Assembly (NCBI GenBank): GCA_902766435.1 | Contig: CACXDM010000110.1 | Span: 1-44,867 of the forward strand | Direction of reading: 5' to 3' | Source: an uncultured Erysipelotrichaceae bacterium | Lineage (GTDB): Bacteria > Bacillota_I > Bacilli_A > Erysipelotrichales > Erysipelotrichaceae | Length of the DNA stretch: 44,867 nucleotides | In this document: in pieces, positions 29,839 through 38,474 of the stretch | How positions within the stretch are numbered: position 1 is the stretch's first letter | Layout: each line of letters starts with the position of its first letter | The notes under the pieces: generated by a model | Told to the model about the DNA's origin: nothing | The model's input: the letters and a program-made list of their open reading frames with translations, nothing else | Databases searched by the model: none | Position numbers and translations under genes: made by a program

Positions 29839-30435
29839 ATGGAAAACAGTTTTTTCGCGATTGTATCAAGAATGAAATATATCGAAAGATGGGCTCTGAT
29901 GCATTCCTCAAGAAGAGAGAATCTTTCCGAGCACTGCATGGATGTCGCCGTCATCGCCCACGCACTGTGTCTGATCGGCAATGTCCGTTTCGGGAAAAAC
30001 CTGAATGCGGAAAGCGCAGCCCTCAAGGCACTTTACCATGATGCTTCGGAGATCATTACCGGCGATATGCCGACACCCGTAAAATACGGCAGTGAGGGAA
30101 TCCGGAAAAGCTATAAGGCAGTCGAGGCACAGGCTGCCGAACAGCTTCTTTCACGTCTGCCTGAGGATCTGCGTCCTTACTATGCGGAAATCTTCCGGGA
30201 AGATGACATTTCTCCTTCCTATGAACAGAAACTGGTGAAAGCAGCCGACAAGCTGTCCGCTTTAATTAAATGTATTGAAGAGAAAAACGCCGGCAATCAT
30301 GAATTTGATACGGCAGAGATTACAACCAGACAGAAGATTGACGAACTGTGTGAGGAACTGCCCGAAGTCAGGGTATTCTGTGATGAATTTCTGCCCGGAT
30401 ACGGTCATACACTGGACACTCTGCTGGCAGGATGA
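29839..30435 (+). CDS. yfbR: 5'-deoxynucleotidase, YfbR-like HD hydrolase
   Basis: The 198-residue protein tracks E. coli YfbR throughout: NSFFAIVSRMKYIERWALM, ENLSEHCMDVAVIAHAL, ALYHDASEIITGDMPTPVKY (the HD pair), and later LVKAADKLSALIKC. YfbR removes phosphate from deoxynucleoside 5'-monophosphates using a divalent metal. Start 29839 has AAAGGAAG upstream and overlaps nothing. It is cotranscribed with the TelA-like gene. Confidence 0.93.
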   Translation: MENSFFAIVSRMKYIERWALMHSSRRENLSEHCMDVAVIAHALCLIGNVRFGKNLNAESAALKALYHDASEIITGDMPTPVKYGSEGIRKSYKAVEAQAAEQLLSRLPEDLRPYYAEIFREDDISPSYEQKLVKAADKLSALIKCIEEKNAGNHEFDTAEITTRQKIDELCEELPEVRVFCDEFLPGYGHTLDTLLAG

Positions 30436-32075: not shown

Positions 32076-32106
32076 AAAGCGTGCGGGTAAAACCGCATGC
32101 TTTTTC
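32076..32106 (+). terminator. Terminator of lipoprotein hydrolase gene
   Basis: An 8-10 bp stem (AAGCGTGCGG/CCGCATGCTT, one G-T pair) has a short A-rich loop and is followed by five Ts. Confidence 0.85.
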
Positions 32107-32164: not shown

Positions 32165-32192
32165 TTGAATTATTATTTCAGTAGGATATAAT
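32165..32192 (+). promoter_or_regulatory. Promoter of the BMP transporter operon
   Basis: TTGAAT (32165-32170) and a perfect TATAAT (32187-32192) lie 16 bases apart. Transcription would start near 32199, leaving a leader of about 205 bases. Confidence 0.65.
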
Positions 32193-32196
32193 CGAA

Positions 32197-32356
32197 ACAT
32201 CTTCGATGAGGAGGGCAGATGTATGGTTAATTTTCGGATTCGGAAAACATGCATGAATAACTGTCTTTTTCATGCGGGTTCTGTCTGCGGACAGAATCCG
32301 GGGAAGAGTGTTTTCAGAGAAGGATGAGACGGTGTATTTCACGTACCCGTCTTTTT
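32197..32356 (+). promoter_or_regulatory. Structured leader RNA with terminator (candidate riboswitch or attenuator)
   Basis: The leader contains four visible stems: ACATCT/AGATGT (about 32197-32222); GCATG/CATGC (about 32250-32276); a strong GGTTCTGTC/GACAGAATCC hairpin with a TGCG loop (about 32278-32297); and, at its end, an intrinsic terminator with stem GACGG/CCGTC plus inner pairs (32328-32351) and five Ts (32352-32356). The operon genes start only after the terminator, so transcription must read through it. I could not match it to purine, 2'-dG, PreQ1, guanidine or ZTP consensus sequences. The rest of this 343-base gap holds no gene. Confidence 0.55.
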
Positions 32357-32404
32357 GTTCGTCTGAAACAGGGAAAGAAAAACAGGTGAGAAACGGAGGG
32401 AAAA

Positions 32405-33697
32405 ATGAAAAAAATTCTTACCAAGGTACTGTCACTGGCAGCAGTTACCGCTATGGTCGGCTGTTCTTCCGGAACAGCTGCTTCTTCCGCTGCAGCTACT
32501 TCTTCCGCTGCGGCCGCAACGACAGGTGACGGCAAGATCGGCGTCATTCTCGTCGGTGATGAAAACGAAGGCTACACAGCAGCCCACATGGACGGTATCC
32601 GTGAAGCGGCTTCTCAGCTCGGCATCGCTGATGATCAGATTATCTGGAAGTACAGCATCGGTGAAACACAGGACTGCTATGACGCAGCTGTTGACCTTGT
32701 AGACCAGGGCGCAACACTCATTGTCTCCAACAGTTACGGTCACCAGGGATTCATGGAACAGGCTGCAAGTGAGAACCCCGATGTCACATTCGTCGCCATG
32801 ACGGGTGATACGGCAGCTCTTTCCGGACTGCCCAACTTCAAGAACGCTTTCAACCACACATATGAGTCACGTTATGTTTCCGGTGTTGTTGCAGGCATGA
32901 AGCTGCAGGAACTCATTGACAACGGAACACTCACAAAGGAAAACCTGCCTGATGCATTCGCAGGCGATGACATCAAGATCGGTTATGTCGGTGCTTATCC
33001 GTATGCGGAAGTCGTTTCCGGCTACACTGCATTCTATCTCGGTGTCAAATCCGTTGTTCCCAATGTTCATATGTATGTTGAATATACAAACTCATGGTTT
33101 GATCAGTCTGCCGAAAAGGCAACTGCAGAGTCTCTGATGGCTAAGGGATGTGTCATCATCTCCCAGCACGCTGACTCCACAGGCGCTCCTTCAGCAGTAC
33201 AGTCCGCTCTTGAAAACGGTACGGTTGCTTACTCTGTAGGCTACAACATCTCCATGCTGGAAGTTGCTCCGGATGCAGCTCTGACATCTGCTTCCAACAA
33301 CTGGTCCGTATATTATACATATGCATTCCAGAACTGGCTTGAAGGCAAGGCAATGGATATTGCAACCGACTGGGCAGAAGGCTACAACACAGGTGCCGTA
33401 TGCGTTACAGAGCTCGGCAAGTCCTGCGCTCCGGGCACTCAGGAAAAGGTCCTCGAAGTTGAAAAGGCAATCAAAGACGGAACACTGAATGTATTTGACA
33501 TCACAACATTCACAACCGGCGGCGCTTCTCTGACAGAAGACACAGAGATTGATCTGAGTTTTGATCCGGCAAATCCGAATCTGATCAAGCCTGTCAAGGA
33601 CGGCGCGTTCAGAGAGTCTGATACAGCAAACGGTTTCCGTAGTGCTCCTTACTTCTCAATCCGTATTGACGGTATTGAAGAGTCCGGCGCGGAATAA
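32405..33697 (+). CDS. BMP-family ABC transporter substrate-binding lipoprotein
   Basis: The 430-residue protein starts with a lipoprotein signal (TAMVGC, lipid Cys 20) and an Ala/Ser linker, then the basic membrane protein (Med/PnrA) fold: KIGVILVGDENEGYTAAHMDG, LIVSNSYGHQGFMEQAA, FNHTYESRYVSGVVAG, IGYVGAYPYAEVVSGYTAF, and VIISQHADSTGAPSAVQ. PnrA-type proteins bind purine or other nucleosides. It delivers the ligand to the ATPase and two permeases encoded downstream. GGAGG lies 6 bases before the start. Confidence 0.93.
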   Translation: MKKILTKVLSLAAVTAMVGCSSGTAASSAAATSSAAAATTGDGKIGVILVGDENEGYTAAHMDGIREAASQLGIADDQIIWKYSIGETQDCYDAAVDLVDQGATLIVSNSYGHQGFMEQAASENPDVTFVAMTGDTAALSGLPNFKNAFNHTYESRYVSGVVAGMKLQELIDNGTLTKENLPDAFAGDDIKIGYVGAYPYAEVVSGYTAFYLGVKSVVPNVHMYVEYTNSWFDQSAEKATAESLMAKGCVIISQHADSTGAPSAVQSALENGTVAYSVGYNISMLEVAPDAALTSASNNWSVYYTYAFQNWLEGKAMDIATDWAEGYNTGAVCVTELGKSCAPGTQEKVLEVEKAIKDGTLNVFDITTFTTGGASLTEDTEIDLSFDPANPNLIKPVKDGAFRESDTANGFRSAPYFSIRIDGIEESGAE

Positions 33698-33757: not shown

Positions 33758-33784
33758 TCATTTACAATAAGCAGGAGGTTGCCC

Positions 33785-35317
33785 ATGAAAGACAGTACGG
33801 CTGTACGTATGGACCGTGTGACAAAACGCTTCGGAAGTGTTGTGGCAAATGACGCCGTCAGTATGAATATCCATTACGGAGAAATCCTTTCCATCCTCGG
33901 AGAGAACGGATCGGGAAAGACGACACTGATGAATATGCTTGCCGGCATCTACTATCCCGATGAAGGAGATATCTACGTTAACGGCAGACAGGTGACAATC
34001 ACCAGTCCCCATGACGCATATGAACTCGGCATCGGAATGATCCATCAGCACTATAAACTCGTGGATGTTTTTACAGCTGCGGAAAACATCATTCTCGGAC
34101 TGGATTCCGACAAGATCACCTACAGCCTTGATGAAGTTAACAAAAAGGTGGAGGAGATCTGCCGGCAGTACGGCTTTGATATTGACCCCAAGGCAAAGGT
34201 CTATGAAATGAGTGTTGCCCAGAAACAGACACTTGAGATCGTCAAGATTCTGTACCGCGGCGCGGATATTCTGATTCTTGATGAACCGACGGCTGTGCTG
34301 ACACCGCAGGAAACGGAAAAGCTGTTTGATATACTGAGGGCAATGCGTTCCGACGGCAAGGCAATCGTTCTGATCACCCATAAGCTGAATGAGGTGCTTG
34401 AGCTCTCTGACCGTGTCACGATACTCAGAAAGGGAAAATACATCACAACGATTCCCACTCCCGTGGCGACGGAACAGATTCTGACCGAAGCGATGGTCGG
34501 TGAAAAGGTCACACTCGATATCGACAGACCGATGCCGGAGAACACCGTAAAGAGACTGTCCGTAAAGAATCTGACTGTCTACAGTGAAGACGGCATCAAG
34601 GCGCTTGATGATGTATCGTTCGATGCATACGGCGGGGAGATTCTCGGTATTGCGGGAATTTCTGGCTGCGGCCAGAAGGAGCTGCTTGAGGCAATTGCCG
34701 GTCTGCAGGTGACGGATAAGAATACATCCATCATCTATTACGACAAGGACGGCAGTGAAAAGCAGCTGATCGGCGTTTCACCCCGTGAGATCCGCAACTA
34801 CGGCGTTCATCTCTCCTTCGTTCCGGAAGACCGTCTCGGCATGGGACTGGTCGCTTCTCTCGGCATGACGGAGAACATGATGCTGAAGGATTACGACAAA
34901 GGCGCTTCTCCGTTTCTGAACAAGTCGGATTCAGCCAAACTGGCGGAGGATGTCAAGAAGGAACTGGATATTGCGACACCGAGTCTTGAAACACCGGTAC
35001 GCAGACTTTCCGGCGGCAACGTACAGAAGGTGCTTGTCGGCCGTGAGATCGCTGCCGAACCGACGATTCTGATGACTGCCTATGCGGTAAGAGGTCTTGA
35101 TATCAATAAGTCGTATACGATTTACAATCTGCTGACAGAGCAGAAGATGAAGGGCGTAGCTGTCATCTATGTCGGTGAAGATCTCGATGTTCTGCTTGCA
35201 TTGGCAGACCGGATCATGGTCCTGTGCAGCGGACATGAAAACGGGATTCTCGATGCCCGTACCGTGACGAAGGAAGAAGTCGGCAGACGCATGACTAACC
35301 TGACGGAGGAGAAATGA
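33785..35317 (+). CDS. Nucleoside ABC transporter ATP-binding protein (two NBDs)
   Basis: The 510-residue protein has two nucleotide-binding domains. The first is complete: Walker A GENGSGKTT, Q-loop IHQHYK, signature-like MSVAQKQ, and Walker B ILILDEPTA. The second has a normal signature (LSGGNVQK) but a changed Walker A (GISGCGQKE) and Walker B region (MTAYAVRGLD), with no Glu after it. That asymmetry is usual for the BMP/NupA and sugar (RbsA) ATPases. Start 33785 is preferred over a TTG at 33779; AGGAGG lies 8 bases upstream. Confidence 0.94.
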   Translation: MKDSTAVRMDRVTKRFGSVVANDAVSMNIHYGEILSILGENGSGKTTLMNMLAGIYYPDEGDIYVNGRQVTITSPHDAYELGIGMIHQHYKLVDVFTAAENIILGLDSDKITYSLDEVNKKVEEICRQYGFDIDPKAKVYEMSVAQKQTLEIVKILYRGADILILDEPTAVLTPQETEKLFDILRAMRSDGKAIVLITHKLNEVLELSDRVTILRKGKYITTIPTPVATEQILTEAMVGEKVTLDIDRPMPENTVKRLSVKNLTVYSEDGIKALDDVSFDAYGGEILGIAGISGCGQKELLEAIAGLQVTDKNTSIIYYDKDGSEKQLIGVSPREIRNYGVHLSFVPEDRLGMGLVASLGMTENMMLKDYDKGASPFLNKSDSAKLAEDVKKELDIATPSLETPVRRLSGGNVQKVLVGREIAAEPTILMTAYAVRGLDINKSYTIYNLLTEQKMKGVAVIYVGEDLDVLLALADRIMVLCSGHENGILDARTVTKEEVGRRMTNLTEEK

Positions 35318-36438
35318 TGAAAGACAGTAAATATGAAGCACCAAAGTCCTCTGTGAAGGAACCGCTTGTACATATTGTCAAGCGCTCGGATATCGAACCG
35401 TGGAAGGCATGGGGAATCCGGATTGCGGCAGTGCTTCTCGGCATGCTTGTCAGCGCGCTGTTTATCAACGGCATTACGAATCTGAATCCTGCAGCTGTAT
35501 TCAAATCCATGTTTGCCGGCGCTTTCGGTACAGACAAGAGAATCTGGCAGACACTGAAGGATATGTCGCTTCTGCTTTGTATCGGTATCGGACTTGCGCC
35601 TGCGTTCAAGCTCCGCTTCTGGAATGTCGGTGCGGAAGGGCAGGTACTGATCGGCGGTCTTGTTTCGGCAGCGCTGATGATCAATCTCGGCGGGAAGATC
35701 CCCAATGGCGTGCTGCTGATTCTGATGGCGTTATGCGCTGTTGTCTGCGGCGCGGTATGGGGCCTTATTCCGGCTTACTTCAAATCAAAATACAGGACGA
35801 ACGAAACACTGTTCACCCTGATGATGAATTATATTGCTTTACAGCTGGTTGAGTTCTACGTCGATGTCTGGGACAAGAAACAGTCTCATTCCGTCGGTGT
35901 CATCAACGCTTCTTCAAAAGCAGGCTGGATGCCTTATATCGGCGGCAACCAGTTTATCCTGATGATTATCATCGTCGCATTGATTACGGTAGGCATGTAT
36001 TTCTATCTGCAGAATTCCAAACAGGGATTCGAAATCACCGTCGTCGGCGAAAGTGAGAATACAGCCCGTTATGCCGGTATTTCCGTTTCAAAAGTCATCA
36101 GAAGAACGATGCTTGTATCGGCAGGTATCTGCGGTCTGGCAGGATTCCTGGAAGTCTCCGCTGTTTCCCATACGATTTCAAGTCTGACTGCCGGCGGCAG
36201 AGGCTTTACGGCAATCATCGTTGCCTGGCTCGGCAAGTTCAATCCGTTTGCGATGACGCTGATTACGGCCATTCTGGCATTTATGTCCAGAGGTGCCAAC
36301 CAGATCGCTTCGGATTTCAACTTCAACAAGTTCGCGTCAAATATTCTGACCGGAATCATTCTGTTCTTTATTCTCGGAAGCGAGTTCTTCATCAACTACA
36401 GACTTGTCTTCCGTCACCGTCCGAAGGAGGTGAAATAA
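35317..36438 (+). CDS. Nucleoside ABC transporter permease, subunit 1
   Basis: The 373-residue protein has about ten membrane segments and features of the BPD_transp_2 (BMP/nucleoside, branched-chain) permease family, such as FWNVGAEGQVLIGG, TNETLFTLMMNYIALQL, VGESENTARYAGI (the loop that contacts the ATPase) and GRGFTAIIVAWLGKFNP. Of two ATGs (35314 and 35317) the second has better spacing from GGAGG. The ATPase stop overlaps it. Confidence 0.93.
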   Translation: MKDSKYEAPKSSVKEPLVHIVKRSDIEPWKAWGIRIAAVLLGMLVSALFINGITNLNPAAVFKSMFAGAFGTDKRIWQTLKDMSLLLCIGIGLAPAFKLRFWNVGAEGQVLIGGLVSAALMINLGGKIPNGVLLILMALCAVVCGAVWGLIPAYFKSKYRTNETLFTLMMNYIALQLVEFYVDVWDKKQSHSVGVINASSKAGWMPYIGGNQFILMIIIVALITVGMYFYLQNSKQGFEITVVGESENTARYAGISVSKVIRRTMLVSAGICGLAGFLEVSAVSHTISSLTAGGRGFTAIIVAWLGKFNPFAMTLITAILAFMSRGANQIASDFNFNKFASNILTGIILFFILGSEFFINYRLVFRHRPKEVK

Positions 36439-36439
36439 C

Positions 36440-37471
36440 ATGACACTGACATCACTTGTAGCCTGGATCGCTGCAGCCATTACATTCGGCACTGTCATCA
36501 TGTACGGCTCCGTCGGTGAGATTCTGACGGAAAAGAGCGGAAACCTGAACCTCGGTGTTCCCGGCATCATGTATCTCGGCGCGATCGGATCACTGGCAGG
36601 ATGTTTCTTCTATGAGAACGGCAATCCCGCACCGAATCCCTGGATCAGTGCCTGCATTGCGGTTGTCTGCGCGTTAACTGCCGCACTGCTCGGCGGACTG
36701 CTGTATTCCTTCATGACGGTAACCCTCAGGGCAAACCAGAATGTCACAGGTCTTACACTGACAATCTTCGGCGGCGGTGTGGCCAACTTCTTCGGGGGTT
36801 CCCTCGTCAAGCTCTCAGGCGGTGTCGGACAGATCTCCGTTGCGGCTGCAAGTTCGGCAATCCGTACAAGGATTCCGTTTCTCTCAGATCACTTCGGCAT
36901 TGTCAGCGATCTGCTGTTCTCCTACGGTTTCTTCACGTATCTTGCGGTTGTGATCGCTCTTGCGGCGAACTACTTCCTGACACGCACCAGATACGGTCTG
37001 AATCTCAGAGCTGTGGGTGAAAATCCCGCTACGGCCGATGCGGCGGGAATCAGTGTAACGAAATACAAGTATCTCGCAACATGCACCGGCGCCATGATTG
37101 AAGGTCTTGGCGGAATGTACTTCGTTATGGACTACATCAAGGGAACATGGGATTCCGGCGGCGCTCTTGAAGCACTCGGATGGCTTGCGGTTGCGCTTGT
37201 CATCTTCACCAGCTGGAAGCCGAAAAACGCGGTCTGGGGTGCTTACCTGTTCGGTTTCTGTTATTGGATCTATCTGTATATTCCTTCAGGTATTTCCGCA
37301 GTGCTGGCAAAATTCTTCGGTGCTGCGAATGTCACGCATATGCAGAATCTTTACCGGATGATTCCGTATCTTGTAACAATCATTGTCCTGATTATCGTCT
37401 CGAAGAAGAAACGAAAAGAAAATCAGAACCCGGCAAGTCTGGGTATATCATATTTCCGTGAGGAAAGATAA
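36440..37471 (+). CDS. Nucleoside ABC transporter permease, subunit 2
   Basis: The 343-residue protein is the second permease of the same family, with about eight to nine membrane segments, GEILTEKSGNLNLGVPGIM (typical start of the NupQ-type subunit), TVTLRANQNVTGLTLTIFG and RAVGENPATADAAGISV (coupling loop). With the preceding permease it forms a heterodimeric channel. It starts 1 base after the previous stop, with AAGGAGG upstream, and its last residues are basic. Confidence 0.93.
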   Translation: MTLTSLVAWIAAAITFGTVIMYGSVGEILTEKSGNLNLGVPGIMYLGAIGSLAGCFFYENGNPAPNPWISACIAVVCALTAALLGGLLYSFMTVTLRANQNVTGLTLTIFGGGVANFFGGSLVKLSGGVGQISVAAASSAIRTRIPFLSDHFGIVSDLLFSYGFFTYLAVVIALAANYFLTRTRYGLNLRAVGENPATADAAGISVTKYKYLATCTGAMIEGLGGMYFVMDYIKGTWDSGGALEALGWLAVALVIFTSWKPKNAVWGAYLFGFCYWIYLYIPSGISAVLAKFFGAANVTHMQNLYRMIPYLVTIIVLIIVSKKKRKENQNPASLGISYFREER

Positions 37472-37490
37472 AGAAAGGCTGGATAAGAAT

Positions 37491-38474
37491 ATGAGTTCAA
37501 ATGTACGTCCCGAAAACATGGAAAGAATCACAACTCCCGAACTGGCAGAAGCATTTATCGAAGAACAGATCAATGAGATCCGTGAACAGGTTAAAGACGG
37601 AAAAGTGCTGCTGGCGCTTTCCGGCGGTGTTGACAGTTCTGTTGTCGCTGCTCTTTTGATCAAGGCAATCGGACAGAATCTCGTCTGTGTTCATGTCAAC
37701 CACGGTTTCCTGCGTAAAGGTGAACCGGAACAGGTTATCGAAGTATTCCGCAACCAGATGAACGCGAATCTGATCTATGTCGACGCAGCTGACAGATTCA
37801 TTGACAAGGTTGCCGGCGTTACCGACCCGGAAGAAAAGAGACACATCATCGGCGAAGAATTCATCAAGGTATTTGACGAAGAAGCTGCCAAGCTTTCCGG
37901 CATCGGCTATTTGGCGCAGGGAACGATCTATCCTGATATTCTCGAGAGTGAAAAGGGAATCAAGGCACACCACAATGTCGGCGGTCTGCCGGAAGAGATG
38001 GAAATGGAACTCGTTGAGCCGGTCAAGCTCCTCTTCAAGGATGAAGTCAGAGTTGTCGGCAAGGCACTCGGTCTGCCTGACAACATGGTTTACCGTCAGC
38101 CGTTCCCCGGTCCCGGTCTCGCTGTCAGATGCCCCGGCGCAATCACACGTGAAAGACTGGAATGCGTCCGTGAATCCGATGCGATCCTGCGTGAGGAATT
38201 CGCAAAGAACGGTCTGCAGGGAAAGGTATGGCAGTACTTCACTGTCGTTCCCGATTTCAAGTCCACAGGAATCAAGAACGGGGAAAGATCATTCGAGTAT
38301 CCTGTTATTATCCGCGCGGTCAATACGACAGATGCCATGACGGCAACAGTTGAAGATGTACCGTTTGAACTTCTTCAGCATATTACCGCCCGTATCACAA
38401 AAGAAGTTCCGGGAGTCAACAGATGTCTCTATGACCTGACACCGAAACCCAGCGCAACAATCGAGTACGAATAA
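37491..38474 (+). CDS. guaA: GMP synthase, ATP-pyrophosphatase subunit/domain only (no glutaminase domain)
   Basis: The 327-residue protein contains only the C-terminal two-thirds of GuaA: the ATP-pyrophosphatase P-loop LALSGGVDSSVV (about residues 41-52), the conserved GTIYPDILES, RQPFPGPGLAVR, and the dimerisation domain ending KPSATIEYE. The N-terminal class I glutamine amidotransferase domain (about 190 residues in usual GuaA, with its catalytic Cys) is absent, and no such gene is next to it. It would amidate XMP to GMP using free ammonia or a separate GATase subunit. Start 37491 follows AAGG; a GTG at 37458 overlaps the permease and is less likely. It is last in the nucleoside transport operon. 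Confidence 0.92.
   Translation: MSSNVRPENMERITTPELAEAFIEEQINEIREQVKDGKVLLALSGGVDSSVVAALLIKAIGQNLVCVHVNHGFLRKGEPEQVIEVFRNQMNANLIYVDAADRFIDKVAGVTDPEEKRHIIGEEFIKVFDEEAAKLSGIGYLAQGTIYPDILESEKGIKAHHNVGGLPEEMEMELVEPVKLLFKDEVRVVGKALGLPDNMVYRQPFPGPGLAVRCPGAITRERLECVRESDAILREEFAKNGLQGKVWQYFTVVPDFKSTGIKNGERSFEYPVIIRAVNTTDAMTATVEDVPFELLQHITARITKEVPGVNRCLYDLTPKPSATIEYE

Follow-up and report, generated by a model that had tools for sequence, protein, structure and literature searches.

Introduction

The pyrBI operon of E. coli is regulated by the relative progress of RNA polymerase and a translating ribosome, such that at high UTP the polymerase moves ahead and the terminator forms, whereas with UTP low the polymerase is held at a pause and hairpin formation is prevented by the ribosome (PMC10135430, PMC5021804). 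The ATP-responsive mgtM leader of Salmonella conserves nucleotides rather than amino acids (PMC3641672). The position of the ribosome relative to the hairpin matters, as ribosomes of E. coli suppress a terminator when the stop codon lies a few nt ahead of it (PMC4824070). As for pausing, the extended elemental pause consensus is G-11G-10T-3G-2Y-1G+1 (PMC6062546), and the T-tract of NusG-dependent pauses reads -11TTNTTT-6 (PMC12288461). Escape from a consensus C|G pause requires GTP in vitro, with bypass falling from about 22% to about 7% when GTP is lowered from 100 to 10 uM (PMC6336406).

Here we analyse a leader upstream of a nucleoside transporter operon in an Erysipelotrichaceae genome, within a DNA stretch of 44,867 nucleotides, referred to as the window. 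It is a real regulatory leader and, on present evidence, not a riboswitch. Taken as a whole, it is probably explained as a transcription attenuator coupled to translation, of the kind known from pyrBI and mgtM. With the UTP-responsive pyrBI/PyrL system of E. coli and Salmonella it shares a leader open reading frame (ORF) running to the terminator, a proposed pause that would let the ribosome block the hairpin, a peptide whose sequence is not the signal, and a nucleotide-pathway operon proposed to be on when the nucleotide is low. It differs in that no homology is seen, in having one candidate TTTTNNTGC|GG pause where the pyrL leader has a U-rich tract, and in its presumed GTP signal, purine-uptake function and Gram-positive host, pyrBI being an operon of pyrimidine synthesis. 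The mgtM leader of mgtCBR likewise combines a short ORF, a conserved nucleotide run and a proposed coupling of pausing to translation (PMC3641672), but there high ATP turns expression on through alternative stem-loops and an A-run, whereas here the ORF abuts an intrinsic terminator and the conserved run is GCGG. The tlrB leader of B. subtilis is similar in that a T-rich, NusG-dependent pause gives time for leader-peptide translation before the terminator (PMC12288461), and differs in its signal, antibiotic-induced ribosome stalling.

The leader and its operon

An esterase-like gene upstream of the leader ends in an intrinsic terminator of its own (32076-32103), and the leader promoter thus begins a separate transcription unit. 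Transcription is predicted to start near 32199, and both the TATAAT element and the first transcribed bases (CATC) are kept in homologous leaders. The features of the leader are the following:

32165 to 32192, + strand: sigma-70 type promoter TTGAAT-16-TATAAT (TTGAAT 32165-32170, TATAAT 32187-32192; 10 of 12 matches in a pattern scan)
32199 to 32222, + strand: predicted 5' UTR of the leader ORF, read from the sequence, with the Shine-Dalgarno AGGAGG at 32209-32214
32223 to 32327, + strand: leader ORF of 34 codons, MVNFRIRKTCMNNCLFHAGSVCGQNPGKSVFREG, preceded by the AGGAGG Shine-Dalgarno; its stop codon TGA (32325-32327) overlaps the beginning of the terminator hairpin
32206 to 32273, + strand: predicted long hairpin sequestering the Shine-Dalgarno and start codon of the leader ORF (32206-32225 with 32248-32254 and 32261-32273)
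32267 to 32277, + strand: conserved motif TTTTCATGCGG, identified by alignment; candidate RNA polymerase pause with C-1 at 32275 and G+1 at 32276 (consensus from PMC6062546)
32275 to 32300, + strand: strong hairpin of 11 pairs between the motif and the terminator, from RNA folding
32326 to 32356, + strand: intrinsic terminator (attenuator), from RNA folding; the sole structure conserved across homologues

The RNA from 32199 to 32360 has a folding energy of -61.2 kcal/mol, while dinucleotide shuffles give -41.25 +/- 3.83 (z = -5.2) and none of 200 folds as well; the leader remains strongly folded when the terminator is left out (32199-32325, z = -4.65). The terminator hairpin, GAGACGGTGTATTTCACGTACCCGTCTT, occupies 32326-32353 and is followed by a T-run to 32356; it was seen by RNA folding and is absent from the pattern-scan list, probably owing to a bulge. 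A first-pass annotation of this DNA had described a strong promoter followed by a structured leader of about 150 bases with an intrinsic terminator, a description that the promoter match, the folding score and the hairpin at 32326-32356 bear out, and had overlooked the leader ORF and the way it meets the terminator.

Downstream lie five genes:

32405 to 33697, + strand: Bmp/PnrA-like substrate-binding lipoprotein, presumed first regulated gene (PF02608, E 9.4e-32)
33779 to 35317, + strand: ATPase of a sugar/nucleoside-type ABC transporter (domain and family matches)
35314 to 36438, + strand: first ABC permease (family match)
36440 to 37471, + strand: second ABC permease (family match)
37458 to 38474, + strand: GuaA-like GMP synthetase, last gene of the operon, lacking the glutamine amidotransferase domain (TIGR00884, 443 bits)

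The nucleoside ABC transporter and guaA announced by the first-pass annotation are therefore present as the lipoprotein, the ATPase, the two permeases and a GuaA synthetase domain, and its purine-related setting is upheld by orthologous operons that have a purine riboswitch (RF00167) or xpt directly upstream. The GuaA-like gene is accessory, none of the 24 other checked loci having one after the transporter. A second, full-length guaA (514-aa frame) is found at G000:C27, and its product is 58% identical to that of 37458-38474. Two genes upstream of the leader, 29839-30435 encodes a 5'-deoxynucleotidase (YfbR family, NF003009), another nucleotide-salvage gene.

Homologous leaders and the transporter tree

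A nucleotide search of 195 family genomes returned only the window leader, all other matches being short and due to chance, and a model built from nine leaders recovered only its training members among 70 genus genomes, where the next-best matches inspected (L174-L177, L180) were chance hits in unrelated genes or intergenic stretches. Since nucleotide search does not reach leaders of such divergence, homologues were sought through the Bmp protein, a relative of which is encoded in 55 of 272 family genomes. A scan of named genomes led, inside the family, mostly back to the same species, Erysipelotrichaceae of rumen and gut, among them strain NK3D112, whose record carries no metagenome-assembly mark and whose leader (L046/L093) is of the same type as that of the window.

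The region upstream of bmp is of three types: a purine riboswitch, an adjoining xpt gene, or a leader like that of the window, defined by a Shine-Dalgarno site, a short ORF and a terminator and found in 14 genomes. Matches to RF00167 scored 73-84 bits in all six of the riboswitch-type bmp leaders tested against Rfam. The clostridial relatives inspected have no evident leader, nor do the xpt genes of the same genomes carry one of this kind. In a tree of 46 Bmp proteins, all leader-ORF copies fall into one clade with support 100/100, which also takes in the xpt-type copy L037 and the uncertain copy L039, while the riboswitch-type copies, together with the unclassified L052, form another fully supported group. 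Since the two kinds of copy belong to separate supported groups, these are two transporter lineages with two devices and not a swap observed at one branch point. Within the genus, the 14 genomes with a leader ORF yielded no purine riboswitch, while 44 of the remaining 56 have at least one, a difference with a hypergeometric probability of 5e-8 when counted irrespective of common descent and with several of the genomes incomplete.

A leader ORF that ends at the terminator

All 14 homologous leaders contain a short leader ORF of 22-59 codons that stops at or within the terminator hairpin: measured at the last base of the stop codon, the ORF ends between 32 nt inside the hairpin (-32) and 5 nt ahead of it (+5). 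A leader ORF that abuts or reaches into the terminator is a feature expected of a pyrBI-type attenuator. Dinucleotide shuffles place a stop at the hairpin with a probability of about 0.04-0.2 per leader, which, multiplied over about 8 lineages, gives about 1e-7, an indicative value, the ORFs having been selected by us. Two leaders (L040 and L041) have no obvious Shine-Dalgarno, and their ORF seems to begin at the first ATG of the transcript. The uncertain copy L039 has a leader ORF of 49 codons with a GTG start that reads across an entire terminator hairpin and stops shortly ahead of bmp; it is without the TGCGG motif described below, and its genome retains one purine riboswitch elsewhere.

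A conserved motif and a candidate pause

Beyond the promoter and the terminator, the nine alignable leaders have a single block without variation, TTTTNNTGCGG, whose invariant columns amount essentially to TTTT..TGCGG; in the predicted fold of the window its T-rich tract is the 3' arm of the long hairpin. TGCGG stands in frame at the same place in 12 of the 14 leaders, the remaining two (L034 and L038) having only U|G. The motif by itself is not rare, with one occurrence in the window against 0.6 expected. Read as peptide, it gives F-x-A-[A/G] in these nine. The variable residue x (Y, H, N or I) is encoded directly after TTT by TAT, CAT, AAT or ATT, with the wobble T fixed and the first two bases free. 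Even in the two most divergent leaders, where x is C or F, the third base is still T. The next codon is the Ala codon GCG in 12 of the 14 leaders, a rare Ala codon in most leader-ORF species that accounts for 2-26% of the Ala codons used by the downstream genes. The fixed wobble bases and the retention of rare GCG point to selection on the motif as nucleic acid rather than as peptide, and conservation of nucleotides without conservation of the peptide, a further feature looked for in a pyrBI-type attenuator, holds for these leaders with the exception of L040 and L041. An idea based on queuosine codons (NAU before GCG) was dropped, as ATT, TGT and TTT occur too and the pause consensus explains the wobble U.

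A pyrBI-type attenuator also calls for a nucleotide-sensitive polymerase pause within the ORF. By sequence match, TGC|G fits the T-3G-2Y-1G+1 part of the pause consensus and stands behind a T-tract, while the NusG consensus TTNTTT at -11 to -6 is matched only in part. The NusG of this organism has N81/T82, the asparagine-threonine pair known to read the T-tract in pausing-type NusG. We give about even chances that RNA polymerase pauses at the motif. Over the 12 leaders tabulated, 45-83 nt separate the start codon from the candidate pause and a further 16-59 nt the pause from the end of the ORF, a spacing that could permit one ribosome to load and catch up. In 8 of 12 leaders, however, folding predictions already bury the Shine-Dalgarno when the polymerase stands at the pause, and pausing by itself would not account for how ribosomes load on these leaders.

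Alternative explanations

The first-pass annotation could fit the leader to no known purine riboswitch and suggested a new or divergent class, to be checked by an Rfam covariance-model scan and by covariation among homologues. The scan agrees with it on the former point: nothing in the window reaches a gathering threshold, a scan of the leader with permissive filters gives chance matches only (best E 1.7-3.1), and the genome itself has no RF00167 match. A known riboswitch, or any other Rfam family, is thus ruled out by covariance-model scores below the gathering threshold. The proposal of a new class fared worse, for the homologous leaders share no fold save the terminator and show no covariation outside it, an outcome that the annotation had itself named as refuting its proposal. 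RNAalifold on nine leaders returns as consensus only the 6-pair terminator, with both-sided changes in three of the six pairs, and the apparent helices of the six closest leaders have no covariation beyond that of shuffles or slid controls. A small or fast-evolving riboswitch, in which the 5' end and the ORF bind a ligand and sequester or free the Shine-Dalgarno of the leader ORF, and so control leader translation and the terminator, would account for the strong folding (z -5.2), for a Shine-Dalgarno that the predictions show largely base-paired in almost every leader, and for the invariance of CATCACA..CGAA and GTGATTTT..TGCGGC in the six close relatives. Yet of the helices in these relatives, the first, AUCACA/UGUGAU, is invariant but for one broken pair, and the second, which hides the Shine-Dalgarno, pairs in only 67% of cells. 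Taken singly, the leaders are for the most part well folded, but across species the predicted partner of the Shine-Dalgarno lies before, at or after the motif, and such shifts in modelled folds are not how an aptamer evolves; even within one genus the sequence is too divergent for one. We regard a riboswitch of this kind as improbable.

Two further readings retain the ORF. Peptide-sensing attenuators, such as those of the TnaC and SpeFL type, are a known kind, and a nascent F-x-A-[A/G] peptide together with a purine might stall the ribosome within the ORF, where it could not protect against the terminator, or hold it at the stop codon, where it would block the hairpin. Nine of the 14 peptides do have F-x-A-A/G, at comparable relative positions, and L040 and L041 have in common the segment ITG[FI]H[AT]LWNTRIS[HF]ADG with mostly silent changes (6 silent against 4 replacement changes over 20 core codons), which hints at a peptide-level function in this branch. 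Against this reading, the residue x is free while the wobble base is fixed and rare GCG is kept, the N- and C-terminal parts of the peptide are unconserved, and L045 and L046 differ by two replacement changes and no silent one, so that an arrest peptide appears rather unlikely as the general explanation. The other reading takes the terminator as a passive relic of an xpt-bmp junction, with the ORF holding readthrough constant or tied to translation capacity. In L037, L062, L065 and L067, the last xpt codons, which encode E/K-N-G-I-E-F, supply the 5' arm of a comparable hairpin that has a T-rich tail and holds the xpt stop codon in its loop, and a terminator of similar sequence, ACGGAATC...GATTCCG, is frequent among ORF leaders. 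An ORF running into a terminator may hence be ancestral and passive, and we would guess that the ORF leaders descend from such a junction. Against passivity, a terminator without function would be expected to vanish, whereas ORF and terminator are found in about 8 lineages, most of them with the motif, despite turnover of nearly all other leader sequence; we hold a passive relic to be quite improbable. Other candidates were rejected: a trp-type amino-acid attenuator (no codon run in any peptide and, by hand, no convincing antiterminator alternative), a T-box (none found) and an antiterminator pairing of GCGG with CCGU of the terminator, which is too weak with 6 pairs in the window and about 4 in most others.

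Proposed mechanism and signal

The layout of the leader is well supported, and attenuation by translation of its ORF is the likely mode of control. We infer that the ORF is translated, that the polymerase pauses at the motif and that the length of this pause carries the signal. The polymerase would transcribe the leader ORF and pause within it at UUUUCAUGC|GG; a ribosome following closely would reach the stop codon at the 5' edge of the hairpin and block the terminator, allowing the transporter operon to be transcribed, while with a late or absent ribosome the hairpin would form and transcription end. When GTP is scarce, the pause would last longer, the ribosome would gain on the polymerase and the uptake operon would be turned on.

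A guanine compound is probably what is sensed, given that the operons of relatives carry guanine riboswitches and the 14 leader-ORF genomes have no detectable ones. Established guanine riboswitches turn expression off when guanine is present, which gives the sign expected for the relatives' operons, and activation at low GTP would agree with it in both sign and metabolite. GTP itself is the natural candidate, as the bases needed to leave the pause are G and G and, in vitro, polymerase at a consensus C|G pause needs GTP to move on. The leaders are not G-rich overall (20-31% G), and GTP sensing would thus depend on the single pause. We propose only tentatively that GTP is the sensed quantity, read as the duration of the UGC|GG pause. 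Equally speculative is the wider proposal that the leader is a GTP-sensing member of the translation-coupled NTP attenuators that replaces the guanine riboswitch in one lineage for guanosine-type uptake. Our search of the open literature met with no GTP-responsive attenuator of this type.

If the proposal is correct, two unrelated RNA devices, a ligand-binding riboswitch and a race between ribosome and polymerase, govern different copies of one purine-uptake operon among neighbouring gut Erysipelotrichaceae, making the evolution of each kind of device comparable, and nucleotide sensing through polymerase pausing gains GTP as a signal and Gram-positive bacteria as hosts. It would then also be a warning that a strongly folded 'orphan' leader may conceal a leader ORF instead of representing a new riboswitch class.

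The purine riboswitch RF00167 is the counterpart of the window leader in the sister operon, which has the same order bmp-ATPase-permease-permease, presumably the same metabolite family and the expected response of guanine as off. It differs in being a ligand-binding aptamer, missing from the window leader and undetected in leader-ORF genomes. Most purine riboswitches of the L048-L074 set (16 of 19) have GTCTCTACC in the P2-P3 junction in place of the usual GTTTCTACC.
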